A DNA stretch of 29,701 nucleotides from a virus. Shown here one piece after another: positions 2,701 to 24,762 of this stretch; position 1 is the first letter of the stretch, and every line of letters begins with the position of its first letter. The position numbers were made by a program, and so were the translations under genes. The stretch is from the IMG/VR virus record IMGVR_UViG_3300024520_000361, positions 1 to 29,701 of that record. The stretch is one strand, 5' to 3'. A model generated the notes under the pieces. The model worked only from the letters and a program-made list of their open reading frames with translations, was not told the DNA's origin and ran no database searches.

Positions 2701-3096
2701 TTATGCTCTCAACTTATTTCTCAAAGAGTTTTCAGTTGCTTTCTTAGTGTAATGTATGTTTCTTTTTTGACATTCTTTTTTTAATGCATCCAATTCCATT
2801 AAATCGAAATCATCCAAATCTTCATCTTCATCAGTATCTTCTGTGTCTGATTCTGTTAAATCAATTGTTTCAGTTGTTTCAACAGCTTCTTCAATTTCAA
2901 CAGTTGTGTTTTCTAATCCATCAGCAACTTCTGTTACTTCGATTTTTTCAATTTCATTCTTTGGAATCCATCCCTGTCCTCTTAATTTTCCTTCTTTTGC
3001 TTCCCAAATATGCAAATACATTTCAGATTCAAATAACTTTCCTGGAGAGCTTCTCTGAACGTCTATAATTTTAATTGTTGGTCTTTGTCCTGCCAT
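2701..3096 (-). CDS. Acidic head-module protein with C-terminal HeH/SAP-like motif
   Basis: A 131-residue protein. The N-terminal 50 residues look like a small beta domain (TIKIIDVQ, YLHIWEAKEGK, GWIPKNEIEKI). Residues about 58-97 are almost entirely acidic (runs of E, D and T). The last 35 residues (LMELDALKKECQKRNIHY, then KKATENSLRNKL) resemble the helix-extension-helix HeH/SAP/LEM type motif common at the ends of small phage structural proteins. It is the first gene after a promoter motif at 3122-3137 and lies before scaffold and capsid. A role as head decoration, head-tail joining or assembly factor is possible but unproven. Confidence 0.6.
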   Translation of the reverse strand: MAGQRPTIKIIDVQRSSPGKLFESEMYLHIWEAKEGKLRGQGWIPKNEIEKIEVTEVADGLENTTVEIEEAVETTETIDLTESDTEDTDEDEDLDDFDLMELDALKKECQKRNIHYTKKATENSLRNKLRA

Positions 3097-3121
3097 TTTT
3101 TTTGCTTTTATTAATAATTAA

Positions 3122-3137
3122 TACAAATATACTAATT
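3122..3137 (-). promoter_or_regulatory. Bacteroidota-type promoter motif for scaffold/capsid genes
   Basis: The minus strand reads AATTAGTATATTTGTA. TATATTTG (3124-3131) fits the Bacteroidota -7 element TAnnTTTG. The first 15 bases are shared with the sites at 5878 and 22918, and nearly so at 24747. A good -33 TTTG is not visible at the expected distance. Transcription would start near 3118, giving a short AT-rich leader before the ATG at 3096, and would feed the acidic protein, scaffold and capsid genes. Confidence 0.65.
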
Positions 3138-3141
3138 TATT

Positions 3142-3774
3142 TTATAATAATCTTTGTTCCCTTTCTGATGGGTTAAAGTTTCCATTCTTAACATTCCTTC
3201 TTAAATCTTTTTTAGGGACTAAACGAACAGATAAAGGAGAAAAGAAATGCCTACAATTCCAACCCCCTCTATTCACAAATATATTACTTTTATTAGTTCC
3301 TGCTTTTCTTCCTGCTAATAGATTTAATGATGCTAATGATTTATGAGTTATTGGATCAACTCCCATCCCTAAATCTTCAACTTCATTATGATGTAAGTAA
3401 TCTTGCATGTAATGAATACAGAATTGCCTCGTTTTTGCAATCTTAGTTCCTGTATATTTATAAAACTCAAAGCCTAAATCTTGAGAAATAGTTTGATTAT
3501 AGGTTGCATTAAAGGTTGTTAGACTGTCATTTGTTACTTGAGATACATACCTTTGCAATCCCCCAACACTTCCTTCAGCCCCATTAATAAAGACATCTAA
3601 TTCATCAATCAAATCATCAAAATTACTCCCCTCAAATACTGCTGAGTTTAATGTTGTCATTATCTTATCAAAGAAATTAACATCAACCCCTGATTCTAAT
3701 AAGTTTAATGCAGCTTGTTGCTTTGAAAACTCTAATATCTCCTCATATAGTGGTAAATCCTTAAATTTAGGCAT
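3142..3774 (-). CDS. MuF/SPP1 gp7-like minor head protein
   Basis: A 210-residue protein with an alpha-helical N-terminal two-thirds and the hallmark C-terminal block of the phage head morphogenesis (Mu gpF/SPP1 gp7) family: TRQFC at 115-119, then GGWNCRHFFSPLS at 170-182. Family members bind portal or DNA inside the procapsid and assist head assembly or DNA ejection. At 210 residues it is short; it lacks the long N-terminal part of many MuF proteins. The neighbouring 104-residue gene could supply a missing piece, but that is speculation. Its ATG at 3774 shares one base with the stop of the preceding gene (TAATG), suggesting translational coupling. The portal gene lies just upstream, as expected. 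Confidence 0.8.
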   Translation of the reverse strand: MPKFKDLPLYEEILEFSKQQAALNLLESGVDVNFFDKIMTTLNSAVFEGSNFDDLIDELDVFINGAEGSVGGLQRYVSQVTNDSLTTFNATYNQTISQDLGFEFYKYTGTKIAKTRQFCIHYMQDYLHHNEVEDLGMGVDPITHKSLASLNLLAGRKAGTNKSNIFVNRGGWNCRHFFSPLSVRLVPKKDLRRNVKNGNFNPSEREQRLL

Positions 3775-4088
3775 TACATTTCAGTTAGATATGTATCAGA
3801 TAGGGTTTTTACCTTATCATAGGATGCAATAAATTTAGCAACTTTCTTTTTATAACTATCTGAGATAAGAATGTTTCTCAATAGTTTTACTTTTTGGACT
3901 GTTTTAATATTTTTTGCTGATTTTTTGATATTACCCTCTGAATCCAAATCCAATTCTTTTTGTAAATATCTCTTGATGGCTTTGAATATCTTTTCTTGGT
4001 CTTCTTTAACATCTAATCCATCAACTGAATCATCAATTAGTTTCAGCCTCTCCATCAGGAGATTGTCCATTTCCTTCGCTGTTAGCAT
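3774..4088 (-). CDS. Small head-module protein overlapping portal C-terminus
   Basis: A 104-residue, strongly charged, helical protein without cysteine or membrane segments, lying between the portal and MuF-like genes. From the ATG at 4088 it overlaps the last 56 bases of the portal gene in another frame. In-frame ATGs at 4070 and 4055 would reduce but not remove the overlap. Purines (GGAAGAAG) lie directly before 4088. The sequence is Lys-rich (KKSAKNIKTVQKVKLLRN, middle part). Position suggests a small minor head or portal-associated protein. No family was recognised. Confidence 0.6.
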   Translation of the reverse strand: MLTAKEMDNLLMERLKLIDDSVDGLDVKEDQEKIFKAIKRYLQKELDLDSEGNIKKSAKNIKTVQKVKLLRNILISDSYKKKVAKFIASYDKVKTLSDTYLTEM

Positions 4089-5823
4089 CTTCTTCCGGTA
4101 TTTCTATTTGTGAAACTATTTTCGCTTTTACCATTTCTTCTAACTTCATAATCTTCTGTTCCCTTGTTTTATTTAAGAAATCAGCATCTTTTTCAATTGC
4201 ATCCAGGATTAAACCCCTAATGTTAGAAGATATAATGTATTGTTCTCTTGAAACTCCTCCCCCTAATAAAACATTTAACTTTTCCTCCTCAGTTTTACCT
4301 GATAAGTAATCCAATTCAATAACATTCTTATTAAATTCTTGTTTTTGAGTATCATTAGGGAATTTCTTATCAATTAAATCTAATTCCCATTGAGTTGTAT
4401 CAATTCCTGCTGCTGCCAAACTCTCAATCTCCTGAACTAATAAAGTTTCATTCAAAGCATTGAAAGATGTTGGTTTATTTATGGTTGGGAATGTTGTTTC
4501 ATTAATTACTGAAAACCTCCAAAGACTTATAAATCTAAAAGCATTCTTTATTATGTTATCAAATAAGTTATCTGAAATCTTGTTTAAAAATGAGTATAAT
4601 TCATCCCTATCAATAGTTTTTGCAACTCCTGATTGATTCTCTCCAACTTTATCTATAATATCAAGGTTAATAGAAGCAAATCCTGATGATAATAATTCAG
4701 CAACTTTCTTTTCTGTTAATTCTACAATTTCAACAGGCTTATCAATGTATGTTACTCCAGGAAACTCAATTGAAGAATCTTCCCCAAATGCATCTTTTCT
4801 TACTGATGTAGTTCCAAAAGGGGAACGTCCATTAATAAATCCTCCTCCTGAACATCTATCACATACTTTTAATATTTCCTGCCCATTTCTTAACCCCTGA
4901 ACTTTAAAGATATTATCTTCATCCTTGCTGCATCCATTATCACATTCAACTTCCATCTCAACCCTTTCAAGAAACAAATGAGCAACATATTGAGCATCTA
5001 AATCTGATGTCATTCTTACTGCTTTATTCCAATATGGTAATATCCCACTCACAAAAGAATCATAAGCAAATGGCAATGTTTCCTCTCTATAATCCCCTTT
5101 CAAGAAATATGCAGGAACTTCCCCAAACCCAAATTCAAATAAAACTTCAACCTCAACAATGCCTAAATTAGATGGATTGGTTTGTTTAATCCTTAGAATC
5201 TGAGAATCTGTTACAATCTCCCAAATATTTAAGGCAACATCCTTAACCATGTTCTTTTCATCTAATAGAATGGTGTAATAATTAAGTCCATAATCAAGAA
5301 CTTGATCCGACCTATAAATAAAAGTAAAGGGTTTTAGATAGGTAACATTATCTTCAGGAATCATTAAAGGTTTAACAACAACTAATGCATTAGCATCAAT
5401 TAAATCCTGTTTTAAAGCAACATCAAATGCCCATTTTTCAACACTACCAAAAACAGGATAATCTTCCTGAGTATATGATTTTAATGAATCAGAATCATCA
5501 ACATTTGATTGGTCTTCAAACTTAATTGAGTAATTAGATGATTGTTGTATCTTTGATAATACGTTGATTATCCTTTTACCTTGAGATTGTGTTGTTGGCT
5601 CATATATTGAGAGCCTGTAATTCATTACTTCAGTTGGCTCATTAGGTCTTTGGGTTGTTAAAAGGTCTTCCGGTAAATCTCCCTTTAAATGCACCCCCAT
5701 TTGAGATGCTTGATTAATATTGTCCTCATAATTTTTATGATAAACAGCATCATTAACTAAATTAGTAATATATGGGAATAATACTTCATCCTCCTTAAAA
5801 TTCTTTTTGTTTGTTATTGGCAT
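4033..5823 (-). CDS. Portal protein with zinc-knuckle-like insertion
   Basis: A 596-residue protein in the position and size range of siphovirus portals, the dodecameric ring at the capsid vertex that conducts DNA and docks terminase and tail. The N-terminal third resembles portals in its pattern of mixed alpha/beta segments. An insertion at about residues 290-345 carries C294, C298, C321 and C324 (CDNGC and CDRC followed by SGGG), a likely structural zinc site. The C-terminal 200 residues are helical and acidic, ending in a hydrophilic SEGNGQSPDGEAETN tail. It follows its own promoter motif at 5878-5893. The next genes (MuF-like, scaffold, capsid) support the portal call. No direct terminase adjacency exists because a tail and glycan block separates them. 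Confidence 0.8.
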   Translation of the reverse strand: MPITNKKNFKEDEVLFPYITNLVNDAVYHKNYEDNINQASQMGVHLKGDLPEDLLTTQRPNEPTEVMNYRLSIYEPTTQSQGKRIINVLSKIQQSSNYSIKFEDQSNVDDSDSLKSYTQEDYPVFGSVEKWAFDVALKQDLIDANALVVVKPLMIPEDNVTYLKPFTFIYRSDQVLDYGLNYYTILLDEKNMVKDVALNIWEIVTDSQILRIKQTNPSNLGIVEVEVLFEFGFGEVPAYFLKGDYREETLPFAYDSFVSGILPYWNKAVRMTSDLDAQYVAHLFLERVEMEVECDNGCSKDEDNIFKVQGLRNGQEILKVCDRCSGGGFINGRSPFGTTSVRKDAFGEDSSIEFPGVTYIDKPVEIVELTEKKVAELLSSGFASINLDIIDKVGENQSGVAKTIDRDELYSFLNKISDNLFDNIIKNAFRFISLWRFSVINETTFPTINKPTSFNALNETLLVQEIESLAAAGIDTTQWELDLIDKKFPNDTQKQEFNKNVIELDYLSGKTEEEKLNVLLGGGVSREQYIISSNIRGLILDAIEKDADFLNKTREQKIMKLEEMVKAKIVSQIEIPEEDANSEGNGQSPDGEAETN

Positions 5824-5877: not shown

Positions 5878-5893
5878 TACAAATATACTAATT
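5878..5893 (-). promoter_or_regulatory. Bacteroidota-type promoter motif for portal genes
   Basis: The minus strand reads AATTAGTATATTTGTA, with TATATTTG at 5880-5887. The TAG inside the motif (5888-5890) is also the stop codon of the upstream methyltransferase gene. No clear -33 TTTG is visible. It would transcribe portal, the 104-residue gene and the MuF-like gene. Confidence 0.65.
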
Positions 5894-6460
5894 TTTTTTT
5901 AAAATAGTTAAACCGTTGTTATTGGTTAATCTTAAATCAATAACCCATTCAGGATGTTCTGCTAAAAACTCCTCAATAGCATCCCAAAGTCCTTTTCCTG
6001 TTTCTGAGAATCCTCCTGATGCTTTAACATCCCAATATTCAGTTTCCCCTACATGAGCATAAGTTGTTGTATCATGAAAACCAATGTATTTCTTAGCCTT
6101 TGAATGATGTCTATTTAATTCAGCTTTTAACTGTCCATACTCATGCCAAGTATCTATAAATAAGAAATCTGTTTCATCAATCTCAATCTTTAATGAATCC
6201 CCAATAACATATTTAAACCGTTTTCCCTCTTTATTGCATAAATCCCTACACTCCTGGAATTGTTCTAATTGTTTCTCAATATCTATTCCAACAACTTGTT
6301 TAGCTGATGATGATAAAAATGCATAAGTTGATACAAAATATCTCACTCCCATTTCAGTAACATGGTCGCATTTATTAGCGTATTCTTTTAATGTTGGTAA
6401 AAGCTCATTTATATCTGATGGTCTTTTACATTCTTGATGGTATTTTTCTTGTAATGTCAT
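5888..6460 (-). CDS. Class I SAM methyltransferase, Methyltransf_24-like
   Basis: A 190-residue protein with a Rossmann-type methyltransferase layout: motif I-like EMGVRYFVS at 36-44, acidic end of beta2 in VGID at 57-60, a GDS turn at 87-89, then FIDTWHEYGQLKAEL at 101-115 and GFHDTTTY at 127-134. The FID-x-x-HEY and FHDT features are typical of Methyltransf_24/CmcI-like proteins, many of which methylate sugars or work in glycan loci (family knowledge). It is the last gene of the glycosyltransferase island, so O-methylation of an added sugar is a reasonable inference. Its stop codon TAG is embedded in the portal promoter motif. The exact acceptor cannot be read from sequence. Confidence 0.75.
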   Translation of the reverse strand: MTLQEKYHQECKRPSDINELLPTLKEYANKCDHVTEMGVRYFVSTYAFLSSSAKQVVGIDIEKQLEQFQECRDLCNKEGKRFKYVIGDSLKIEIDETDFLFIDTWHEYGQLKAELNRHHSKAKKYIGFHDTTTYAHVGETEYWDVKASGGFSETGKGLWDAIEEFLAEHPEWVIDLRLTNNNGLTILKKN

Positions 6461-6462
6461 TG

Positions 6463-6672
6463 TTATTTCTTTTTATTCATAATGTATTCTGAACATGTCA
6501 TTATTGCGGGTTCTTGTTGCCCATGAACTGTCATTATCATTGGGGATAAAATCTTTTCCCCCTTACAATAAAACATATTCATTTTACCACCTTCCCCATG
6601 AGCAACAACATACTCCTGTTTTATTAATTTAGTACATGAATAACATATACTTTTAAATTCGTCTTTTTTCAT
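6463..6672 (-). CDS. Small Cys-rich protein, possible zinc ribbon
   Basis: A 69-residue protein with C10-x2-C13 near the N-terminus and further cysteines at 36 and 60, a spacing that could bind one zinc ion. No catalytic motif or membrane segment is seen. Its ATG shares one base with the stop of the preceding 282-residue gene (TAATG) and it ends two bases before the methyltransferase gene, so all three are probably made together. It may be an accessory or adaptor in the glycan island; the function is unknown. Confidence 0.6.
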   Translation of the reverse strand: MKKDEFKSICYSCTKLIKQEYVVAHGEGGKMNMFYCKGEKILSPMIMTVHGQQEPAIMTCSEYIMNKKK

Positions 6673-7520
6673 TATAATTCATTTAATATTTTACATGTAT
6701 AATCATATTCTTCTTTTAACCCTAAATCATCAACCAATCTTTTATATTCTCCCTCATATTTAAAAGGAATAATCTGTTGGTCTGTTGCTCCATGATATTC
6801 TGTTCTTGATTTCTTAATAAATAACTCAATAAATCCTTTCTTATCCCCTGATTCCCATAATTCAACCAATTCATCAGTATATTCATCATGATAGCATAAC
6901 CTACCCCAATTCTTTGTCTTTTGATAACATGCATAAGCATCAATATATCCCGTATCAATAACATAATTCATTAGTTCCTGAGAGGATTCCCCCAAATTAC
7001 TAACATATTGGTTACAATCTATCCTAACATTATCACAAAATCTTATATTATCAGATAAACCATCATTTGAACGATATACAACCCCCTTTCTAAAGATTTG
7101 GAATACTAATTGAGCAAAGAAAGTTTCACAAAATAACTTATTACTCATTGCCCCGAAAATAGCAAACTGTTGTTCTGATGTCTCTATCCATTTACTTACT
7201 TCTTTGATTCCCCTCTCAGTTAATAGTTCATCAGCAGATTGAAAAGCAGAAACAGAATAATCATAATTGTCTCTTATGTATTCATAGCTCATGTCTTGCA
7301 TCATTGCAAAATCCCTTCCATCCTTTATTTTCCAATTTAAGTTTACTATCTCAATATTAGGATGATTACATGCCATTTTTTTTACCTCCAACATCTCACA
7401 TTGATGTTCATCAGCTCCAAACCAAATAACTAAATCAAAAATCATTAACCTTTCAGAAACATATTCAACTCTATAATTGACATGTTCTAAATGATCCACT
7501 ATCATACTTGCTATTCTCAT
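6672..7520 (-). CDS. Unknown glycan-island protein, 282 aa
   Basis: A 282-residue soluble protein not assigned to a family. The N-terminus (MRIASMIVDHLEHVNYRVEY, then DLVIWFGADEHQ at about 28-39) could be the first beta-alpha-beta part of a nucleotide-binding or GT-B-like fold. The middle contains SEQQFAIFGAMSNKLFCE, near 114-131, and several aromatic-rich stretches. No clear DxD motif is present. It lies between the DUF5672-like gene (with a 60-residue gene between) and the methyltransferase gene, so a sugar-transfer or sugar-processing role is plausible from context only. Confidence 0.6.
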   Translation of the reverse strand: MRIASMIVDHLEHVNYRVEYVSERLMIFDLVIWFGADEHQCEMLEVKKMACNHPNIEIVNLNWKIKDGRDFAMMQDMSYEYIRDNYDYSVSAFQSADELLTERGIKEVSKWIETSEQQFAIFGAMSNKLFCETFFAQLVFQIFRKGVVYRSNDGLSDNIRFCDNVRIDCNQYVSNLGESSQELMNYVIDTGYIDAYACYQKTKNWGRLCYHDEYTDELVELWESGDKKGFIELFIKKSRTEYHGATDQQIIPFKYEGEYKRLVDDLGLKEEYDYTCKILNEL

Positions 7521-7521
7521 A

Positions 7522-7704
7522 TTATTTCCAAAATTGATACCATTTCTTTTTTACTGTTATAACCTCAATTCCAATCTTCATATTTTCCATCTTGGAAAGT
7601 TGTTTTTCAAGCCTTTCAGCTAATTTTATTGATTTAGTTAATTCTTTTTTAACTACACTATCATCAACATTTATATTTAAGGTAATATCTTTAACTTCTG
7701 CCAT
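7522..7704 (-). CDS. 60-residue protein resembling the tape measure N-terminus
   Basis: A 60-residue protein: a short beta-like start (MAEVKDITLNINVDDSVVKK), a charged helix, and a basic aromatic tail KKKWYQFWK. The first 20 residues resemble the start of this phage's tape measure protein (MAGNVKDVTIKINVIDGDIK), sharing VKD-x-T-x-x-INV and a following D-x-x-x-KK pattern. The start overlaps the preceding gene by 14 bases and the stop lies just before the next start. It may be a detached relic or an interaction mimic of the tape measure head; function unknown. Confidence 0.6.
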   Translation of the reverse strand: MAEVKDITLNINVDDSVVKKELTKSIKLAERLEKQLSKMENMKIGIEVITVKKKWYQFWK

Positions 7705-8317
7705 ACTGTTCTAATATTTGTTTACATTCTTCTTTACTTAACCATTTATCTATTGCATGAACTCCCAAACTTCCCAACCCAAAGATTGTTTCAACTGAAA
7801 ACTCCATGCATTTTTCTCTTGATGCTAAATTGCCAACTTTATAATTCCTCATGATGTTACAGAATAAAACATCCTCATTTCTTGTTGAGAATTTGAACGT
7901 TTCAACTATTTCTTTCATTACATTAACATCCCTAAGACTTAATCCTCCATTTCCTCCATGCTCTTGAAACTTCCATGCAGCTCCAATATAATCATATTCT
8001 AAATAATCCTCAATCCCCTCTCTTAATAATCTACTATCTGATTGAAAGATTAATACCTTATCATAGGGTAATGAATACCAAAATTGTCTTGATTTTAATA
8101 ATACATTATATGTTGATTCATCAAATCTTCCTGGAGGAATCATAACAATGTTTGTTTTCCTCCCAAAATCTACATCTTTAACTAAATGGACATTATCTAA
8201 TGATAGATATAAGGTAATTCCCCAATCTTTTGGAATATATTTAAGATGATAATCCACAATTATCTCAACCAAATTTGCAATTGGTCTTGTTTCTACTATA
8301 CAACATCCTTTTCTCAT
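7691..8317 (-). CDS. DUF5672-like putative glycosyltransferase
   Basis: A 208-residue protein with the features of DUF5672, a family found in glycan loci and thought to be GT-A-like: KVLIFQSDSRLLREGIEDYL at 87-106, then YDYIGAAW at 109-116 and GGNGGLSLRD at 121-130. The QSDS segment sits where GT-A enzymes carry the metal-binding DxD; the glycine-rich GNGGLSLR loop is typical of the family. At about 208 residues it is compact. ATGA overlap with the coiled-coil gene upstream suggests coupled translation. Donor and acceptor sugars are unknown. Confidence 0.7.
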   Translation of the reverse strand: MRKGCCIVETRPIANLVEIIVDYHLKYIPKDWGITLYLSLDNVHLVKDVDFGRKTNIVMIPPGRFDESTYNVLLKSRQFWYSLPYDKVLIFQSDSRLLREGIEDYLEYDYIGAAWKFQEHGGNGGLSLRDVNVMKEIVETFKFSTRNEDVLFCNIMRNYKVGNLASREKCMEFSVETIFGLGSLGVHAIDKWLSKEECKQILEQYGRS

Positions 8318-8565
8318 CCTAATAAATTACATTGAATTTTATAATATACTAATTCCCTATTAACTTTTAATAATTGTTTATTCCGTTTTTTAAGTTCTTT
8401 ATATTTTTTATCTCTATAAATGGAAATCTGTTTATCTCTTTGGGTTAAACTTAACGAATCAATATGCTCTTTTAATGTTTCAATATACTCTTTTAGCTCC
8501 CTATTTTCCTTTTTTTCTAATTCATAAAGGATTTCTATTGGAATTTTTAATAACATTTCACTCAT
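8314..8565 (-). CDS. Short coiled-coil protein
   Basis: An 83-residue protein composed almost wholly of charged heptad-like sequence (ELEKKENRELKEYIETLKEH and KELKKRNKQLLKVNREL), so a coiled coil is very likely. No cysteine-based motif except one near the C-terminus. It has ATGA overlaps with genes on both sides, a transferase-like gene each way. It may be a dimerisation or scaffolding partner for one of them; this is inference only. Confidence 0.6.
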   Translation of the reverse strand: MSEMLLKIPIEILYELEKKENRELKEYIETLKEHIDSLSLTQRDKQISIYRDKKYKELKKRNKQLLKVNRELVYYKIQCNLLG

Positions 8566-9305
8566 TCAACTATTTCTTTATTAAAATTAGGATGATTCCT
8601 TAATGATTTTGGCATTAATTGTTTATCATATTCTGTTGGATTCCATAACCCAAACGCAACAGGATGAACATCATCAAAATGATTATCATTATCCCATGCA
8701 TAATAAATATCATTCAGCCAATTATCTCTCAATTCCTCCTTATGCCCATGAATTAAATACTTATAATCCATTATTGTTTTTGATTGACATGTTGAAAAAT
8801 GCCATATTGTAACATCCAATGAACTCATATCAGGATGTTGGTTATTTAGATTGATAACTCTGATAGGTAAAAATCCATCATAACAAGCATAATCAAAAGA
8901 CCTCCAAAGGTTAATATATCCCTTGATTCCATAATTTCTATGAACTCCCTTTGATGCTATTTCCAACCCTTTCTTTAGTTCATCCGTATTAAACACTTCA
9001 TCAGCATCAACAACAACTAACAAATCAAAACCCCAACTAAATTTGAATATCTCGTTTCTATGGTCTCCCTCACTATGATAGTTTCTTGAATGCCATGTTA
9101 ATTTCTCCCCACATACATCTTCAGCAATAGCCTTTAATTCTTCCTCACTTTCAGGACATGTTGCAGTTGTCCCATAAGAATATGATGGAGATGGGGTGTA
9201 TAAAACAACAAATTTATCACATAAATCAATTACTGATTCTAATGATTCCCTCAAATAATCCTTTCCGTAATGAAGTGGACAATACCCTATAACTTTTGCT
9301 TTCAT
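8562..9305 (-). CDS. GT-A (family 2-like) glycosyltransferase
   Basis: A 247-residue protein starting with a beta-strand KAKVIGYCPLHYGKDYLRES typical of GT2-type folds. GDHRNEIFK (80-88) and LLVVVDADEVF (95-105) follow; D100-A-D102 is the expected metal/UDP-sugar-binding DxD. The C-terminal half is rich in aromatic and His residues (IWHFSTCQS, HGHKEEL). No membrane segment, so it probably acts in the cytoplasm. ATGA overlaps on both sides place it firmly in the glycan operon. The sugar transferred cannot be deduced. Confidence 0.75.
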   Translation of the reverse strand: MKAKVIGYCPLHYGKDYLRESLESVIDLCDKFVVLYTPSPSYSYGTTATCPESEEELKAIAEDVCGEKLTWHSRNYHSEGDHRNEIFKFSWGFDLLVVVDADEVFNTDELKKGLEIASKGVHRNYGIKGYINLWRSFDYACYDGFLPIRVINLNNQHPDMSSLDVTIWHFSTCQSKTIMDYKYLIHGHKEELRDNWLNDIYYAWDNDNHFDDVHPVAFGLWNPTEYDKQLMPKSLRNHPNFNKEIVE

Positions 9306-9538
9306 TCTTTTATTTTAAAGTACATTTTTAACATCCATTTGTAAATTCTATTATCTAATGCCTCGAATAATGAATCCTTAAACTCTTTATATGCCTTATC
9401 AACAGGAAACCATGCAACATACATATCATATCCCAATGTTGAAACAATCATTTCCCTTTCTTCTAATGATACATCAGAAAAATCAATATCATTTTTATAT
9501 AAATATTCTTCATTATAATATTTCCTTAATAAACTCAT
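9302..9538 (-). CDS. Small hypothetical protein, 78 aa
   Basis: A 78-residue soluble protein rich in aromatic residues (Y, F and W about one in six), with an acidic centre (DIDFSDVSLEEREM) and a basic amphipathic C-terminal helix (RIYKWMLKMYFKIKE) that might touch a membrane or a partner protein. It overlaps both neighbouring glycosyltransferase-like genes by ATGA. No family recognised. Confidence 0.55.
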   Translation of the reverse strand: MSLLRKYYNEEYLYKNDIDFSDVSLEEREMIVSTLGYDMYVAWFPVDKAYKEFKDSLFEALDNRIYKWMLKMYFKIKE

Positions 9539-10461
9539 TTTACTAAATTAATTATATTATCAATCATATTATCAAAAGTGAATGTATTTTTTACTAATTC
9601 ATTCCCATGCAATGCAATTTCCTTTCTTATTTTCTCGTTTTTAAGGTAGAAATCAATGTTTTGTTTCAACTCATCAAAATCATCCCATGTTGCAACATTA
9701 ACTCCAGGACTATAATCTTCTTTTAATCCTTTATAATTCTTTGTTAAACATAATGGAGTTCCTGTTCCCATAATCCTTAAAATCCTATCTGAATTATATC
9801 TTTCATAATCATAATGGGATAGATTGATTGCTATCTTTGCCCCTCGATATAATTTAGCCTCCTCATGTTGTGAATGATTGAAATTACCATTGCAAACTTC
9901 CCATCCATTTCCATACAAACCAAAATCATGAGGATAATGATACTTTAAGAAAGCAACCATTTGTATTCTCATCTTAGATAAAGGGAAGAATCCTGCTCCA
10001 TAAGTATTACCTAAAAATACAATGTCTCTTGTAAGTAATTTATCCCCTTCAGGTTTGAATATCTCAGGATCATAACCAATCTCAAGATAATCAGCTTTTA
10101 AACCATCATTTCTAAACTGTTTAACATCAGTCATGTTACTAAATAACGTTAAATCAATGTGTTTCCCTATCTCATAAAACCATTGAGGAATTGGATGCCT
10201 TACATCTCCTGTAAAGTTAACAACAAATGCTCCTGTTCCTTTTAATATCTTAACAGTTTGTTCTGATATAATATTTGATGCTTGTATCTGAATGAATACT
10301 AAATCAGGCTTAAATTGTAGGGTAATGTTTTGAACTTCCTCATTAAAAGATGTTGTATTGGGTTTTAATTCAATGTATTCTGAGGCTCTTTTTCTAAATG
10401 CCTTAGTAAATCCGTTTTCGCCACACATAAGACTAAGATTTAATACTTTCATTTTCTCCAT
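9535..10461 (-). CDS. GT-B (family 4/CgeB-like) glycosyltransferase
   Basis: A 308-residue protein with two Rossmann-like halves, as in GT-B enzymes. The N-terminal half contains KPDLVFIQIQ (51-60) and VNFTGDVRHP (81-90). The C-terminal half has DIVFLGNTY (146-154), YRGAKIAINLS (205-215), then RYNSDRILRIMGTGTPLCLT (221-240), the E/D-x7-type nucleotide-sugar region seen in CgeB-like proteins. ATG at 10461 is usable, but the ATG at 10452 forms an exact ATGA overlap with the preceding 54-residue gene and is an equally good start. Cytoplasmic; substrate unknown. Confidence 0.75.
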   Translation of the reverse strand: MEKMKVLNLSLMCGENGFTKAFRKRASEYIELKPNTTSFNEEVQNITLQFKPDLVFIQIQASNIISEQTVKILKGTGAFVVNFTGDVRHPIPQWFYEIGKHIDLTLFSNMTDVKQFRNDGLKADYLEIGYDPEIFKPEGDKLLTRDIVFLGNTYGAGFFPLSKMRIQMVAFLKYHYPHDFGLYGNGWEVCNGNFNHSQHEEAKLYRGAKIAINLSHYDYERYNSDRILRIMGTGTPLCLTKNYKGLKEDYSPGVNVATWDDFDELKQNIDFYLKNEKIRKEIALHGNELVKNTFTFDNMIDNIINLVK

Positions 10462-10613
10462 TTTATTTCAATAAATACTTTATATCTCAATAAGCTCCAT
10501 TGAATCCCCAATCTTCTTTCTCTATCTTTATAATAATCACAATAAATAATTGGCAGTAAACTTAAACAATAAGTCCCCCCAATATGTTCTAAATAATCTA
10601 TATCTAATTTCAT
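10449..10613 (-). CDS. Small coupled protein, 54 aa
   Basis: A 54-codon frame from ATG at 10613 to TGA at 10449. It begins MKLDIDYLEHIGGTYCLSLL and ends with a basic IEIKWRK. Its start overlaps the upstream stop as ATGA, and its own stop overlaps the downstream gene, exactly as for the proven-size genes around it; it fills the gap completely. This makes a real gene likely despite its length. It has a modestly hydrophobic centre but no convincing membrane helix. Function unknown. Confidence 0.6.
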   Translation of the reverse strand: MKLDIDYLEHIGGTYCLSLLPIIYCDYYKDRERRLGIQWSLLRYKVFIEIKWRK

Positions 10614-11290
10614 CTTGGTAATTTTGTTGGTATTACTAATTTATAAGGAGGTTGAACAACATCCTTTTGGGTATTCATACAGTAATTTCTTACTCCTGTT
10701 ATATGATAATGATATGTTCTTACATCAATTGATGGGTTTATTACATCATAGTACTTATCCAATAAAAAAGCAATACGATTATCACAACCTCGTTTCCCTA
10801 AACAAAAGTTTGCTTCCGGTATCACTTTAAATCTTCCTTTTACCATCCAAACATCTTGAGAATCCCTATTTGCATGATGTCTTGAGTATGGTTTACTCAT
10901 TGAATCATTAAGAAAGTCCCATCTACTCAATGCAAGGCAATGATTCCCCCAATTCCATCTCTTTAATTTCTCCAATACCATATAATCAAAAACAATATCA
11001 GTATTAGCAATGATATTTATATCTTCAGGATATTCTCCTGTTAATATAAAGTAATCGTTATATGATGGTCTTAATTCTGTTATAATAGGGACAACTTTTG
11101 ATTGATGAGCAGTTGTTAATTTGTTTGAATTAAGTATATTATTAAAGACTTGTAAATGTTCCTTTGAGATATACATTACAATACGGTTGATTGATTGATT
11201 TGTTAGGTTATCCAGGAGACAACAAACTAATTCCCTATGTCTTTTAGGATTAGTATCAACATAAAAGTTTATGTATAAATTAACGTTCAT
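10610..11290 (-). CDS. Putative GT-A-like glycosyltransferase
   Basis: A 226-residue protein with a GT-A-like core. INIIANTDIVF (91-101) ends a strand with the acidic NTDI element that replaces a classical DxD. CLALSRWDF (118-126), SQDVWMVKG (144-152) and FCLGKRGCDNRIAFLL (162-177) follow, then a late TYHYHITGV near the C-terminus. The SQD...W and G-x-x-G-CDNR elements recall a family of putative nucleotide-sugar transferases in phage and bacterial genomes (recollection). Its start overlaps a 51-residue gene and its stop overlaps the next gene by ATGA. Confidence 0.65.
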   Translation of the reverse strand: MNVNLYINFYVDTNPKRHRELVCCLLDNLTNQSINRIVMYISKEHLQVFNNILNSNKLTTAHQSKVVPIITELRPSYNDYFILTGEYPEDINIIANTDIVFDYMVLEKLKRWNWGNHCLALSRWDFLNDSMSKPYSRHHANRDSQDVWMVKGRFKVIPEANFCLGKRGCDNRIAFLLDKYYDVINPSIDVRTYHYHITGVRNYCMNTQKDVVQPPYKLVIPTKLPR

Positions 11291-11435
11291 TATAATCTTT
11301 TGTTTTTACTGCTATGTATAATGTTCCCCACCATCCAAAGATTTCATCCTTAAAAAATGCCTCAGCTTCAAAATCCTCCCATTCAAAGTTCTTAACCTCA
11401 TGATAGTAATCTTGATTTGCCCATCTAACTTTCAT
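11280..11435 (-). CDS. Small coupled protein, 51 aa
   Basis: A 51-codon frame from ATG at 11435 to TAA at 11280. The product starts MKVRWANQDYYHEV and is acidic and aromatic, with FGWWGTLYIAVKTK near the C-terminus. The ATG overlaps the stop of the upstream transferase gene as ATGA, and its end overlaps the downstream start by 11 bases. The tight fit argues that it is translated. It is too short for a transferase domain; perhaps an accessory subunit. No family recognised. Confidence 0.6.
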   Translation of the reverse strand: MKVRWANQDYYHEVKNFEWEDFEAEAFFKDEIFGWWGTLYIAVKTKDYNER

Positions 11436-12163
11436 ATCTTAAATAATGAATCAGGTAAATTATTTTCATTCTTATATTCTGCTAACATCCTTTGATTTCT
11501 ATCAAATTTTTCTCTATTTGCTCCCCCCATCTTATTAACAACAGGATGATATTGATGAAGTATCTCAGATTCTTGAATCCAAACTACTTCCAACCCATTA
11601 TTTACTGCCATATAATACATAAGATTATCCATTGCCCCAAATCCATCCATTTCTTCAGGATAAGGGTTATTAATGAAGAAATCTTTTGTTGCATATTGAC
11701 ATGCTCCATTAGCAAACATTCCCCATATATTATAACCACATTTAGGGAACTTCCATTGTGCAATCTTTTCCTTTTTGATGTCCATATTAGGGAGCATCTT
11801 AACCTTCTTATGCAACATCCTCTTTTCGCTTCTAAAGTTGTTGCAAATATACATAAAATCAGCCTTAAATATGTAATCCCCATCAGTACACATGATATAT
11901 TTTGAGTTACTCTCCTGGATTCCTTTGTTTAACAGCTTACATTTATTGAAATCATGTAAAGGATAATGAATATGTTTTACTTTTAGCCCTATTAACAATC
12001 CCTCTAACATTTCAAACTCAATCTTTTCAGAAGAATTAACAATGATAATATCTTCAATGTATTCTAATTGACATTGTAGGGAGATTACTGAGTTTCTTAT
12101 TCTTTTCAGTCCTCTCCTAACCATATTATGAATAGGGATTATTATAGATACTTTTTCATTCAT
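11432..12163 (-). CDS. Family 2 glycosyltransferase
   Basis: A 243-residue GT2-type protein. It opens with VSIIIPIHNMVRRGLKRI, the classic first strand and loop of GT2 enzymes. DIIIVNSSE is at 38-46. KYIMCTDGDYIF (88-99) carries the metal/nucleotide-binding D94-G-D96. Further on come WGMFANGACQ and GFGAMDNLMYYMAVNNGLEV, resembling the acceptor-side ED/GxxDxxL region of the family, and a late HQYHP. No membrane helix. Its start overlaps a 59-residue gene; its end is coupled to a 51-residue gene. It is the most certain transferase of the island. Confidence 0.85.
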   Translation of the reverse strand: MNEKVSIIIPIHNMVRRGLKRIRNSVISLQCQLEYIEDIIIVNSSEKIEFEMLEGLLIGLKVKHIHYPLHDFNKCKLLNKGIQESNSKYIMCTDGDYIFKADFMYICNNFRSEKRMLHKKVKMLPNMDIKKEKIAQWKFPKCGYNIWGMFANGACQYATKDFFINNPYPEEMDGFGAMDNLMYYMAVNNGLEVVWIQESEILHQYHPVVNKMGGANREKFDRNQRMLAEYKNENNLPDSLFKI

Positions 12164-12335
12164 TATTAAAGTCTTTGTTTAATTCCTCATAAACATCTAA
12201 TGAAAGCCTCCAATCAGGGGAGTGCCAATTTAACGCTTCATATTGAGGTTTAATAACAATCATTATTCTCCTTATAGTTTCTTCCTGCTCCTTAAATAAG
12301 GCTTTTAATTCTTCAATTTCCTGCTTTTTATTCAT
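12156..12335 (-). CDS. Small coupled protein, 59 aa
   Basis: A 59-codon frame from ATG at 12335 to TGA at 12156. The N-terminal half is a charged helix (KKQEIEELKALFKEQEET); the C-terminal half contains LNWHSPDWRLSLDVYEEL. It overlaps the preceding 74-residue gene by 8 bases and the next gene start by 8 bases. Without it there would be an unexplained 164-base gap in a gap-free operon. Function unknown. Confidence 0.6.
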   Translation of the reverse strand: MNKKQEIEELKALFKEQEETIRRIMIVIKPQYEALNWHSPDWRLSLDVYEELNKDFNNE

Positions 12336-12552
12336 CTTTATCTCTATTCATTTTAATATCACTTAGAGTTAATACATTAGGAAGTTCTTTATCTGTTCCC
12401 ATTGCCTCAACCCATGCCTGATAATGTTTAGTTAAATCATATTTATTCATGTAGGTAGTTAACCAATACATTGCTGTTCCAAATTCATCTAACTTATCAT
12501 GTAATGCTTCCATTTGAGCATTCTTTGATATTTTCTTTGTTCTGCTACTCAT
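12328..12552 (-). CDS. Small hypothetical protein, 74 aa
   Basis: A 74-residue charged protein with a basic N-terminus (SSRTKKISKNAQ) and a central aromatic helix (FGTAMYWLTTYMNKYDLTKH). It starts two bases after the stop of the preceding small membrane protein gene and overlaps the next gene. It lacks cysteine and recognisable motifs. Placement in the glycan operon is the only functional hint. Confidence 0.55.
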   Translation of the reverse strand: MSSRTKKISKNAQMEALHDKLDEFGTAMYWLTTYMNKYDLTKHYQAWVEAMGTDKELPNVLTLSDIKMNRDKDE

Positions 12553-12554
12553 AA

Positions 12555-12764
12555 TTAATCAATTAAATCTTCAATACATAAATATAACAATGCTAATAAA
12601 AGGGCAATAGCAATTAAGCCTAAAATAATAAGCATTCCAAATAAATAACTAACGAATGAATCCGTTGGTATTCCAAATAAATAATCAGGAGTTAATAACC
12701 CAAAACAATAAGGGGTAATTAAACAACAAATCATTGCTAATATAATTTTTATCTTTCTAAACAT
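12555..12764 (-). CDS. Small membrane protein, two predicted helices
   Basis: A 69-residue very hydrophobic protein. Residues about 5-24 (IKIILAMICCLITPYCFGLL) and about 39-63 (a long L/I/A/G stretch) should span the membrane, joined by a short loop with two Asp residues; the end is acidic (CIEDLID). Two-helix architecture also occurs in holins, but it lies between transferase and unknown genes rather than beside an endolysin, so lysis is not supported. It may anchor island proteins to the inner membrane. Confidence 0.55.
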   Translation of the reverse strand: MFRKIKIILAMICCLITPYCFGLLTPDYLFGIPTDSFVSYLFGMLIILGLIAIALLLALLYLCIEDLID

Positions 12765-12767
12765 AAT

Positions 12768-13589
12768 TTATCTTTTTTTGTGAAATATTTTCTGCATTGA
12801 ATCCCATTTCCAATATGGGGAAAACTGTTTTACAGTCGTTTCATAGATATGTTTTAACTTAGTGTTGTGAAAACCTCCTGCCATACCTAAAACGAAGTAA
12901 TTTGTCCTTATTTGCTCTCCTGCTAACATCTTATTCTCCCAAAAGAAGTATATAGGTTTTAATGATGGCTTATCTGAGTAATGTTTTAACTGAGCTGATG
13001 CCAAATTAAACGCTAATTCATCAGGATATAACCCTCCAATTGGTTTGAAATTTAATTTCCTATCAAAATAGTTCTTTTTTACCCTCTCAAAGTACTTTTC
13101 ATTCTTTTTACTTCGATTAAATATCACTATTGATGAGTTATGTTCAGGATATTCCCTATCATGAGGTAAATTCCATGCATCAAATACATCTCTTAGACAT
13201 AATCCTGCCTTTTTAACCCATACCATATCACAACCTTCAGCAGTTTCATAGGTATATTTAGCAACCTCCTGGACTTTGAACTTAAATCTGAATAGTGGAT
13301 CAATATCTTTCAAAACAATCCCATCAACATCTAAATAAATAGTATGTTCAAAAGGACTTAAATCATACATGTAAGTCTTTAACTTAAAAGGATTGAATTG
13401 ATACTCCTCTAAGTAATCATCCAATTTAGGTCTTATTATATCACTATATTCAGTTAATAATGATGAATCAGTTTCATCAGTAATACATGCAATCTCAACA
13501 TCAGAATATTGATGTATTGATTTAGCCATGTTAAAGGCTAATCTGCTGTAATGTTTTCCTAATGCTATTAATAAAACTCCTTTACTCAT
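12768..13589 (-). CDS. GT8-like glycosyltransferase
   Basis: A 273-residue protein. The start SKGVLLIALGKHYSRLAFNM and CITDE (35-39) match the first strands of GT8/GT-A retaining enzymes. HTIYLDVDGIVLKDIDPLF (82-100) holds D87-V-D89, the expected DxD, in the typical YLDxDxxxxxDxxxLF context. EHNSSIVIFNRS and LYPDELAFNLA further on fit the acceptor/donor pocket region. The final part holds GMAGGFHNTK, a His/Lys pair placed like the late metal-binding His of GT8 enzymes. Cytoplasmic. Its start overlaps a 49-residue membrane protein gene. Confidence 0.8.
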   Translation of the reverse strand: MSKGVLLIALGKHYSRLAFNMAKSIHQYSDVEIACITDETDSSLLTEYSDIIRPKLDDYLEEYQFNPFKLKTYMYDLSPFEHTIYLDVDGIVLKDIDPLFRFKFKVQEVAKYTYETAEGCDMVWVKKAGLCLRDVFDAWNLPHDREYPEHNSSIVIFNRSKKNEKYFERVKKNYFDRKLNFKPIGGLYPDELAFNLASAQLKHYSDKPSLKPIYFFWENKMLAGEQIRTNYFVLGMAGGFHNTKLKHIYETTVKQFSPYWKWDSMQKIFHKKR

Positions 13590-13731
13590 CTTTATTTATG
13601 TAATTATCAATAAATATTATTACATTGTTTGATGCTTCGTTTGACAACTTACAAATTACAATAATAGGAATTAATGGAGTTGCTAATATAATAAGTATTA
13701 ATGAAACAACCACTTTTAATAAATCTTTCAT
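13582..13731 (-). CDS. Small membrane protein, 49 aa
   Basis: A 49-codon frame from ATG at 13731. After MKDLLK comes a 22-residue hydrophobic stretch (V, I, L, A and P) followed by CKLSNEASN and a charged end, giving one likely membrane helix. Start overlaps the previous stop as ATGA; stop overlaps the GT8-like start by 8 bases. No family recognised. Its order suggests co-translation with the transferase. Confidence 0.55.
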   Translation of the reverse strand: MKDLLKVVVSLILIILATPLIPIIVICKLSNEASNNVIIFIDNYINKDE

Positions 13732-13874
13732 AACTTCTTTTTAAATCGTTCAATTTTCTTTTCCATTATAGTTGCTTTCCAACCATTATTGCAATCAAGA
13801 TAGAAATCTCTCCATGCAGTTAACTTTTCAATGTGAATTTGATTCTCTTTTTCTTTTAAATATTCTTCTATCAT
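13728..13874 (-). CDS. Small basic protein, 48 aa
   Basis: A 48-codon frame from ATG at 13874 to TGA at 13728. It is a charged helix (IEEYLKEKENQIHIEKL), then WRDFYLDCNNGWKATI, ending in a basic KKIERFKKKL. ATGA overlaps on both sides tie it to its neighbours. Unknown function. Confidence 0.55.
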   Translation of the reverse strand: MIEEYLKEKENQIHIEKLTAWRDFYLDCNNGWKATIMEKKIERFKKKL

Positions 13875-14032
13875 TCTAATCTAAGTTTAGTTATTTTTAT
13901 TTCATATATTTCGTTTTCTTCTAATTCAAAGAACTTATCTTCAGTACCAATTACAGTAATCCCATTTGTTACAACCTTAACAACATCATCCTCTTTTATG
14001 GTCTTTGCAATTATTGTTGTAGATTCATTCAT
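13871..14032 (-). CDS. Small beta-rich protein, 53 aa
   Basis: A 53-codon frame from ATG at 14032 (a second ATG at 14028 is in another frame). Alternating hydrophobic and polar residues (TTIIAKTIKED, VVKVVTNGITVIG, IYEIKITKLRLE) suggest a small beta barrel. Its stop overlaps the next start as ATGA. It begins 23 bases after the stop of the 205-residue gene. Function unknown. Confidence 0.55.
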   Translation of the reverse strand: MNESTTIIAKTIKEDDVVKVVTNGITVIGTEDKFFELEENEIYEIKITKLRLE

Positions 14033-14054
14033 TTCTTTATGTATGTTTCACCGT

Positions 14055-14672
14055 TTATAATCCAATCTTAGTTTCTATTGCTTCTAATCTTTGTATAATA
14101 TTGCCTTTGAAGTTGTCCCCTCTCATTTTCAAAACACTTAAGTCAATTTCCTCTTTCTTATCTTCTACTATTTCTGCCCAATCCCCATTATGAAATAATA
14201 CGCATTTATCCCCACCAGCAAATTCTACTCCTAAATGATTATCTCTTGAATTATACCAATATTTAGGGTTTTGCCAAATACTATATTCAATCCCATCAAA
14301 AATACATTTTACTTTCTTGCCTTTAAATTTATCACATTCCTTAATTAATGCTTCTTCTACTTCTTCATTAGTCATTCGTTCCCATTTTTTCATATCGTAA
14401 GTTGATACACTTGACTTACCCCATTTACCGTCTATTATACCATAAAAATACCAACTACCACATCTTAATTCATATAAACACATATAGTAAGTATCTCCAT
14501 TGTATATTTTTTGTTTCCACCACTTACCAACCTCAAACTGTTCTATTAATCCTTTTTCTTTTAGGAATTGAGGAATTGAGTGTTTATCATAATAAAAGCT
14601 CCCATGCTCAAATGAGCAATTTTCTTCTTTAAAATCATTAAACAACTCTACTACTTCTTTTTTACTATACAT
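14055..14672 (-). CDS. Hypothetical protein leading the glycan operon, 205 aa
   Basis: A 205-residue soluble protein rich in W, Y and K. The first 60 residues are helical (YSKKEVVELFNDFKEEN). The middle has repeated aromatic strands (GKWWKQKIYNG, TYYMCLYELRCGSWYFYGI), and the C-terminal part has FAGGDKCVLFHNGDWAEIVE, resembling a small beta-barrel. It ends with a helix RLEAIETKIGL. It is first in the run of genes that continues to 5888 and follows a structured non-coding stretch. No family recognised; it may have arrived separately from the transferases. Confidence 0.6.
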   Translation of the reverse strand: MYSKKEVVELFNDFKEENCSFEHGSFYYDKHSIPQFLKEKGLIEQFEVGKWWKQKIYNGDTYYMCLYELRCGSWYFYGIIDGKWGKSSVSTYDMKKWERMTNEEVEEALIKECDKFKGKKVKCIFDGIEYSIWQNPKYWYNSRDNHLGVEFAGGDKCVLFHNGDWAEIVEDKKEEIDLSVLKMRGDNFKGNIIQRLEAIETKIGL

Positions 14673-14790: not shown

Positions 14791-15306
14791 TTAAAAAACA
14801 TTAAGATTAGCAAATTCTCCATGATTTATTTTTGCTGATTCATTATAAGCTAATGCAGCATCTTCCTCAGTCTTAAAAGTTCCTAAATACTTCTGTTTAC
14901 CGTCTATTTTTATATTTGCTATAATAGTTCTGTAAGTATAACGACTTTCTCTTTTTAGTTTTTTAGAAAAATATTTTCTTTTTACCACATGATAACTTAC
15001 TCCTAAATATTTTGATGATCCATATCCATTCCTGTTTTTTGAGTTCTCAGATGATGTACATATCCTTAGATTTGACCTTCTGTTATCCAATCCATTCCTA
15101 TTAATATGGTCTATAATTTGCCCTTTTTTTGCGTTCATTACAAATCTATGTAACTTTATTTTCTTTCGATTAACATAAACATCAGCATAGTTAACATTTG
15201 CACATTTATGAAAATAGCAACTATATTGTTTTATATTTTCATAATCAGAATCATCAAGAATAATACTGTGTTTTATTCCCTTGTATTTTATTTCAATTGT
15301 TTTCAT
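14791..15306 (-). CDS. HNH endonuclease with AP2 DNA-binding domain
   Basis: A 171-residue free-standing homing-type endonuclease. The HNH region spans about 50-90: LHRFVMNAKKGQIIDHINRN then LDNRRSNLRICTSSENSKNR, with H53, D66-H67, N75 and N79 as likely zinc and catalytic residues. An AP2/ERF-like DNA-binding domain follows (SKYLGVSYH at 98-106; KYLGTFKTEEDAALAYNESA at 139-158; HGEFANLN at 162-169). Such enzymes cut a specific site and spread by copying; they are common in phages. It lies between a tail-gene terminator and the next operon, so it breaks no gene. Its own promoter overlaps its start. No intron or intein is seen. Confidence 0.85.
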   Translation of the reverse strand: MKTIEIKYKGIKHSIILDDSDYENIKQYSCYFHKCANVNYADVYVNRKKIKLHRFVMNAKKGQIIDHINRNGLDNRRSNLRICTSSENSKNRNGYGSSKYLGVSYHVVKRKYFSKKLKRESRYTYRTIIANIKIDGKQKYLGTFKTEEDAALAYNESAKINHGEFANLNVF

Positions 15307-15308
15307 TT

Positions 15309-15343
15309 GTCAAATATACAAATAAAAACTATCTAAAAACAAA
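15309..15343 (-). promoter_or_regulatory. Promoter of the HNH endonuclease gene
   Basis: The minus strand has TTTG (15340-15343), 21 bases, then TATATTTG (15311-15318). This is the best match in the window to the Bacteroidota -33/-7 pattern. Only four bases separate the -7 element from the ATG at 15306, so the message would begin at or next to the start codon (leaderless). The -33 part overlaps the T tract of the terminator, so the end of one transcript and the start of the next are fused. Confidence 0.6.
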
Positions 15344-15379
15344 AAACCTCGTAACATTTAAAAAGAGGTTACGAGGTTT
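15344..15379 (-). terminator. Intrinsic terminator after the tail gene block
   Basis: AAACCTCGTAAC (15344-15355) pairs perfectly with GTTACGAGGTTT (15368-15379), a 12-base stem with a 12-base loop. On the transcribed strand it is followed by TTT and then a further T-rich tract (TTTTTTGTTTTT in total). It begins 17 bases after the stop of the 174-residue gene and is the clearest terminator in the window. Confidence 0.85.
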
Positions 15380-24746: not shown

Positions 24747-24762
24747 AACAAATATACTAATT
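24747..24762 (-). promoter_or_regulatory. Bacteroidota-type promoter motif after terminase
   Basis: The minus strand reads AATTAGTATATTTGTT, with TATATTTG at 24749-24756. The 5' end of the motif overlaps the stop codon of the terminase gene. Transcription would start about ten bases before the ATG at 24734. No clear -33 element. Confidence 0.6.

Follow-up and report, generated by a model that had tools for sequence, protein, structure and literature searches.

Why would a tailed phage keep a run of sugar enzymes in the middle of its structural genes? The question is raised by a 29.7 kb contig of an uncultured virus, IMG/VR record IMGVR_UViG_3300024520_000361, which was analysed over its whole length of 29,701 nucleotides (nt; called the window here). 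Its genes lie on the minus strand and are transcribed in the order terminase, tape measure, tail genes, terminator, sugar-enzyme region (5888-14672; the island), portal, MuF-like, scaffold-like and capsid-like genes, so that tail genes precede the island and the portal gene follows it. A first-pass annotation of the DNA had listed six glycosyltransferase (GT)-like genes, a methyltransferase-like gene and about twelve small open reading frames (ORFs) in the island, and all of them are present and intact on the minus strand (Table 1). We put at roughly two in three the probability that a glycogenin-like GT8 enzyme and an accompanying cassette of enzymes glycosylate a virion protein in the cytoplasm during late expression, with optional methyl capping.

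The GT8-like gene product appears from its sequence to be GT8-like but divergent, and not a member of the Pfam family: its match to PF01501 (E 0.0017, 18.4 bits) falls under the cut-off of 24.3, and the profile of its family reaches glycogenin with an E-value of 1.4e-4. Glycogenin is also, at E 1.5e-10, the top PDB match of the structure model (predicted local distance difference test, pLDDT, 82.8; predicted template modelling score, pTM, 0.86), followed by UGGT, these top matches having probability 1.00 and TM-scores of 0.5-0.6. The DxD motif (D87, D89) is invariant in 24 of 24 homologues in the family alignment. Glycogenin is a GT8 protein glucosyltransferase that starts a glycan on a protein, namely itself. 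The phage enzyme has the same fold and DxD motif, but the two are only ~13% identical in the structural alignment. That the conserved gene is glycogenin-like suggests, by analogy only, protein-directed initiation of a glycan.

Scans of viral contigs with single proteins (GT8, portal and the product of the 282-amino-acid (aa) gene) found no relatives, and alignments of the large terminase subunit (TerL), portal and CgeB were needed. A TerL pair alignment gave 24 viral contigs as relatives, the closest of which, G001, has a TerL 73% identical to that of the window, and a portal profile search gave 34 clusters at 85% identity, 33 of them with upstream sequence. GT8 lies upstream of the portal gene in 22 of these 33 portal lineages (G001 counted through L028); in 9 of the 22 it runs up to the start of the portal gene or overlaps it, and most of the others carry intervening genes. 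All ten of a set of more distant relatives with a portal match have a GT8 homologue upstream of the portal, eight of them directly so. In two lineages (L106, L101), GT8 is fused to the GT-A enzyme in a single protein of 742-765 aa. The island had been described as inserted between tail and head genes. Its location stands, but a simple one-time insertion was rejected, because GT8 is at the junction in most relatives: the GT8-like gene is an old resident of the tail/head junction and does not belong to an insertion, and the other genes form a variable cassette.

The interval between GT8 and portal is a hypervariable sugar-modification slot. G001 carries GT8, GT2, GT-A, CgeB, GT2-like and DUF5672 genes in the window's order, with 56-74% identity, but has no methyltransferase, no 282-aa gene and few of the small ORFs. 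The GTs in the slots of relatives include DUF6492 (2e-7), weaker GT2 and Galactosyl_T proteins. The proteins encoded there comprise a DUF6492/GT2 protein and an FkbM methyltransferase; Galactosyl_T, DUF6492 and Methyltransf_24/FtsJ proteins with a sugar C-methyltransferase and a nucleotide-sugar epimerase; O-methyltransferases; and the weaker GT2 proteins. In one lineage without GT8, it is GT25-like, DegT, GT2 and Methyltransf_24 genes that adjoin the portal. As several distinct methyltransferase families recur in the slot, methylation as a common step is supported. Two other genes were seen in this interval: an RNA-ligase gene between GT2 and GT-A within the glycan island of G001 (L029:677-1387; PF09414 E 3e-18), and a Terminase_3 large-subunit gene between GT8 and portal in a further contig (L071:8084-9376).

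Among the remaining enzymes of the island, the DUF5672, CgeB-like and GT2 genes match Pfam above the cut-off. The GT2-like gene reaches PF00535 with an E-value of only 0.024, and its best homologue with 3e-5. The GT-A gene has no GT Pfam match. Its model (pLDDT 93.9, pTM 0.91) matches chondroitin synthase, a GalNAc-transferase, WrtF and nucleotidylyltransferases in the PDB with modest TM-scores of ~0.5, and the NxD and SQDVW motifs are invariant or nearly so in 18 sequences of its family. Structure prediction, proposed in the first-pass annotation as a check, was thus run for GT8 and GT-A and matched them with glycogenin and GT-A enzymes. The intact DxD-type motifs claimed for several enzymes are borne out by the invariant DxD of the GT8 family and DxDE of the GT2-like family. 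Profile searches of the PDB with the methyltransferase, CgeB and GT2-like families returned no match. The methyltransferase is the weakest of the region's enzyme assignments, made from sequence similarity: eight homologues have invariant acidic and His residues, and they match Methyltransf_24 with an E-value of only 0.0075.

None of the six GTs, nor the methyltransferase, has a transmembrane-like segment. Since the GTs lack membrane segments and are expressed with head genes, their acceptors should be cytoplasmic. This bears on the idea that the enzymes alter host lipopolysaccharide, capsule or glycoproteins, leading to a superinfection block or serotype change, as the GTs of serotype-converting prophages are known to do. 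TerL relatives do occur in bacterial genomes, and two small ORFs of the island have transmembrane-like helices, but no GtrA-type flippase was recognised (these two membrane-like ORFs were not family-scanned), and the GTs lack the membrane embedding seen in the GtrABC serotype-conversion locus. Both here and in unrelated phages the genes belong to the head operon, not to a lysogenic or moron region, which also makes modification of the host surface improbable. More broadly, the earlier statement that sugar-nucleotide synthesis, flippase, polymerase and ligase genes are missing agrees with our results for the GT-sized proteins tested; the small ORFs, two with a transmembrane-like helix, were not family-scanned.

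The placement in the head operon is suggested by the transcription signals. An intrinsic terminator closes the tail unit, and its hairpin (-16.1 kcal/mol, z -5.1) was equalled in stability by 0 of 200 shuffled sequences; G001 has a similar hairpin in the same place. Directly after it is a Bacteroidota-type promoter-like site, a consensus match only, which is the sole coding-strand match in the window, with one further match on the other strand. Sigma-70 and terminator scans were uninformative; reading and folding the sequence revealed the terminator, and a motif search the promoter-like site. The two signals set the region apart from the tail unit and leave it aligned with the head genes. Overlaps of 1-14 nt join most island genes, and the small ORFs among the GT genes mostly have short stop/start overlaps, consistent with one operon. 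Given the tail terminator, promoter-like site and gene overlaps, the island looks like the front of the head operon.

A profile search with CgeB detected at least 118 viral contigs with relatives, of which 80 were kept. In these 80 loci, CgeB is followed by GT2-like in 76, and accompanied by DUF5672 in 69, GT-A in 60 and the methyltransferase in 10; these counts are lower bounds, as many contigs are short. Two arrangements occur: type I, that of the window (GT-A, CgeB, GT2-like, DUF5672, methyltransferase), and type II (CgeB, GT2-like, DUF5672, GT-A). Four to five cassette genes are kept in fixed order across phages with portals, capsids and tails unrelated to those of the window, and profiles of the window family's portal, TerL and capsid recognised none in the 80 CgeB contigs except G001. 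In L241 (type I) the cassette is flanked by a protease/capsid-like pair and a different portal; in L221 (type II) the major head protein is on one side of it and the head-tail adaptor, neck and major tail proteins are on the other. Overall, the cassette sits among structural genes (protease, capsid, portal, adaptor, major tail) in 15 of 16 CgeB clusters (L055 and L070 included); the remaining cluster, L224, is a 129 kb contig in which placement is unresolved. The survey of related phages suggested by the first-pass annotation was carried out for both parts of the island. CgeB is also encoded in four genomes from the order of Ginsengibacter (L277-L280), and in three of these GT-A is present too; the neighbouring genes are tail-like, one of them for a tape-measure-like protein; these loci are either prophage or tail-like particle, and capsid genes were not recognised in the stretch read.

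The cassette genes could still have been non-functional remnants. The ratio of non-synonymous to synonymous substitution rates (dN/dS) between the window and G001 is 0.13-0.24 for the six GTs and 0.13-0.18 for capsid and portal, with synonymous divergence near saturation, and 0.03-0.20 within type I and type II pairs. With intact ORFs of similar length in G001 and dN/dS of 0.03-0.24, decay is rejected, and the genes are maintained under purifying selection.

We asked whether the GTs might instead build glycans on modified phage bases as a defence against restriction. Phage GTs that act on DNA are well known, and those of T-even and TET-associated phages (Pyle 2024, as cited in PMC12619734) resemble the proposed pathway in that multiple phage GTs act in sequence. 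Unlike what is described there, the window has its GTs among late structural genes and has no base-modification gene: neither a Tet/JBP, a thymidylate-synthase-like nor a C5-methylase gene is present in it or in G001, although the window covers only part of the genome. Of 26 related records tested, 6 have a cytosine C5-methylase, and a Tet/JBP-type dioxygenase is encoded in two type I cassette phages (G063 2941-3366; G064 1913-2323), but these are the only two Tet/JBP genes in 41 records, themselves incomplete genomes, none of which has a thymidylate-synthase-like gene, and no record tested has both Tet/JBP and C5-methylase. As the genes also sit among late virion genes in unrelated lineages, we consider DNA hypermodification unlikely, in agreement with the first-pass annotation.

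A third option is another cytoplasmic target, such as a host protein, tRNA or small molecule, with the late-gene placement serving expression timing only. No acceptor has been identified, and the RNA ligase in the same slot of G001 would fit such a target, but the enzymes turn up repeatedly next to portal, capsid and tail genes in several unrelated lineages, which makes this explanation very unlikely. A virion protein is the simplest acceptor common to phages with unrelated structural modules, and the same placement of such enzymes in relatives and in unrelated viruses suggests that the particle is decorated with sugars. A soluble multi-step pathway with a cytoplasmic target, most plausibly a virion protein, had been proposed from the window alone, and is favoured by the structural-operon position here and in unrelated phages together with purifying selection.

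For glycosylation of the virion, we propose that late phage genes would build a glycan on one of the phage's own virion proteins in the host cytoplasm. The first sugar on a head or tail protein is probably put in place or lengthened by the glycogenin-like GT8; GT-A, CgeB-like, GT2-like, DUF5672 and GT2, all soluble enzymes, would lengthen the chain, in a presumed order of sugars, from host sugar nucleotides; and the methyltransferase probably caps or modifies the chain. That methylation is the last step, as had been suggested, depends on gene order, the methyltransferase gene coming after DUF5672 in type I cassettes, and on a weakly assigned enzyme. The variation of the cassette among relatives presumably reflects diversifying pressure on the surface decoration. 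What the analysis establishes are the enzyme classes (for the methyltransferase only weakly), the conserved active sites, the gene position, the joint inheritance of the cassette and the purifying selection; the virion target, priming by GT8, the order of sugars, the methyl cap and a benefit to the phage are inferred from these.

Several points weigh against this explanation. Its support comes from sequence and structure models. The structural proteins examined show no acceptor site or clear Ser/Thr-rich tract or tail. As the window has no sugar-nucleotide genes, donors must be host-derived. The methyltransferase matches PF04989 (RMNT_CmcI) with an E-value of 0.0014 and 18.9 bits, below the cut-off of 23.2. 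Some cassettes coexist with a Tet/JBP gene. Eleven portal lineages are without GT8, so GT8 is not essential to this type of virion.

Within the sources cited here, the closest known case is virion glycosylation in mycobacteriophages (Che8 gp110, Corndog gp38 and Myrna), where phage GTs glycosylate capsid and tail tube (PMC12363180 and PMC12619734, citing Freeman 2023). As described there, these systems are similar to that of the window in having phage-encoded GTs and, as proposed target, a virion structural protein. Unlike the mycobacteriophages, the phages of the window have a core glycogenin-like GT8 with a transferable cassette of four to five genes, probable methylation and probably Bacteroidota hosts; the exchangeable cassette and the glycogenin-like core are the new elements relative to known virion glycosylation. 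Searched with tblastn, 50,697 phage records yielded no mycobacteriophage match for four of the GT families, the presence of Che8 and Corndog in that collection being unconfirmed. The nearest annotated relative of GT-A is SWZG_00036 of cyanophage S-SKS1 (32%, E 8e-21), which belongs to a cluster of sugar-related genes and stands beside a nucleotide-sugar epimerase; there the GT-A gene alone was matched, and the 18.6 kb inspected has no annotated structural gene.

More speculatively, a mobile multi-enzyme glycan assembly line may move as a unit between the structural modules of unrelated phages and coat the particle with a methyl-capped oligosaccharide, and in one lineage the glycan would be primed on the virion by the glycogenin-like enzyme. 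Such a virion-coat chemistry would be general and exchangeable, and would have escaped notice because the full cassette was found in no cultured phage. We regard this wider scheme as possible but doubtful.

Table 1 Coordinates of the island genes, flanking genes and transcription signals in the window.
Feature	Position	Strand or side	Basis and remarks
Capsid-like	696-1742	head side	Synteny with relatives, weak PHROG matches
MuF-like	3142-3774	head side	Synteny with relatives, weak PHROG matches
Portal	4033-5823	-	Directly downstream of cassette; homologous to relatives' portals (67% G001, ~28% others)
Cassette gene 5, probable S-adenosylmethionine-dependent O-methyltransferase (CmcI/Methyltransf_24-like), weak	5888..6460	-	PF04989 below cut-off
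Five small ORFs between GT genes	6463-6672, 7522-7704, 8314-8565, 9302-9538, 10449-10613	-	Stop/start overlaps
282-aa protein	6672..7520	-	No family match, no relative; confined to window
Cassette gene 4, DUF5672 glycosyltransferase-like	7691..8317	-	PF18922 E 6e-26; QxDS invariant in 11
Cassette gene 3, GT2-like glycosyltransferase	8562..9305	-	DxDE invariant in 13
Cassette gene 2, CgeB/GT4-like glycosyltransferase	9535..10461	-	PF13524 E 2.4e-16
Cassette gene 1, GT-A fold glycosyltransferase	10610..11290	-	Structure model and motifs
51-aa small ORF	11280..11435	-	Between GT2 and GT-A, overlapping both
GT2 glycosyltransferase	11432..12163	-	PF00535 E 5e-7, above cut-off; 74% identity in G001, dN/dS 0.15
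Three small ORFs (69, 74, 59 aa)	12156..12764	-	69-aa ORF with transmembrane-like helices
Core GT8/glycogenin-like glycosyltransferase	12768..13589	-	Conserved upstream of portal; DxD; model; profile
Three small ORFs (53, 48, 49 aa)	13582..14032	-	4-nt overlaps; 49-aa ORF with transmembrane-like helix
205-aa protein	14055..14672	-	No family match, no homologue in relatives
HNH homing-endonuclease-like	14791..15306	-	PF13392 E 3e-8; PHROG HNH E 3e-31; outside cassette proper
Bacteroidota-type promoter-like site, TTTG-N21-TATATTTG	15311..15343	-	Motif match right after terminator
Intrinsic terminator, closes tail transcription unit	15341..15379	-	11-12 bp hairpin, then U run
Tape measure	20508-22754	tail side	PHROG E 3e-38
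TerL	24761-26095	tail side	PHROG E 6e-42

The 282-aa and 205-aa genes had gone unnamed in the first-pass annotation. The small ORFs of the island number twelve and encode 48-83 aa. Codon statistics separate such short ORFs poorly from out-of-frame sequence, so that coding is not proven for all of them; G001 has homologues of the 48-aa ORF (52% identity) and the 74-aa ORF (59%). The 60-aa ORF at 7522-7704 shows similarity (35% over 51 aa, pairwise E 5e-5) to the N-terminal part of the tape-measure protein of this same phage. The HNH homing-endonuclease-like gene follows the tail terminator and precedes the island; comparable HNH genes are found at other places in relatives. The identities of the portal, MuF-like and capsid-like genes rest on synteny with relatives and weak PHROG matches. 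The portal family has invariant C298, C321 and C324, in a CxxC...CxxCxGxG pattern resembling the DnaJ zinc ribbon.

The virus is probably a tailed phage of a member of the Bacteroidota. Its TerL relatives (27-43% identity) are mostly in Bacteroidota genomes, including Ginsengibacter and Pontibacter isolates; a Methylococcaceae and a Kapaibacterium metagenome-assembled genome (MAG) have one relative each, and GT8 was also found beside a portal of the same family on one Bacteroidetes MAG contig. Shine-Dalgarno usage is at background (2 of 52 genes, against 2.2 expected), in line with a Bacteroidota host, and the promoter-like site of Bacteroidota type points the same way. Megablast and tblastn searches against cultured phages found no close relative, and an Rfam scan found no RNA element.

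Phage virion glycosylation has been documented in few cases. If the proposed reading is true, the structural operon of a whole group of uncultured phages, probably with Bacteroidota hosts, retains a gene for a glycogenin-like enzyme, and a multi-step sugar cassette passes between unrelated phages, which would make particle glycosylation a widespread modular trait. The enzymes would provide a ready set of protein-directed glycosyltransferases to test, and gene order alone could be used as a marker of glycosylated virions in metagenomes. For the phages themselves, there would be consequences for recognition, stability and host adsorption.

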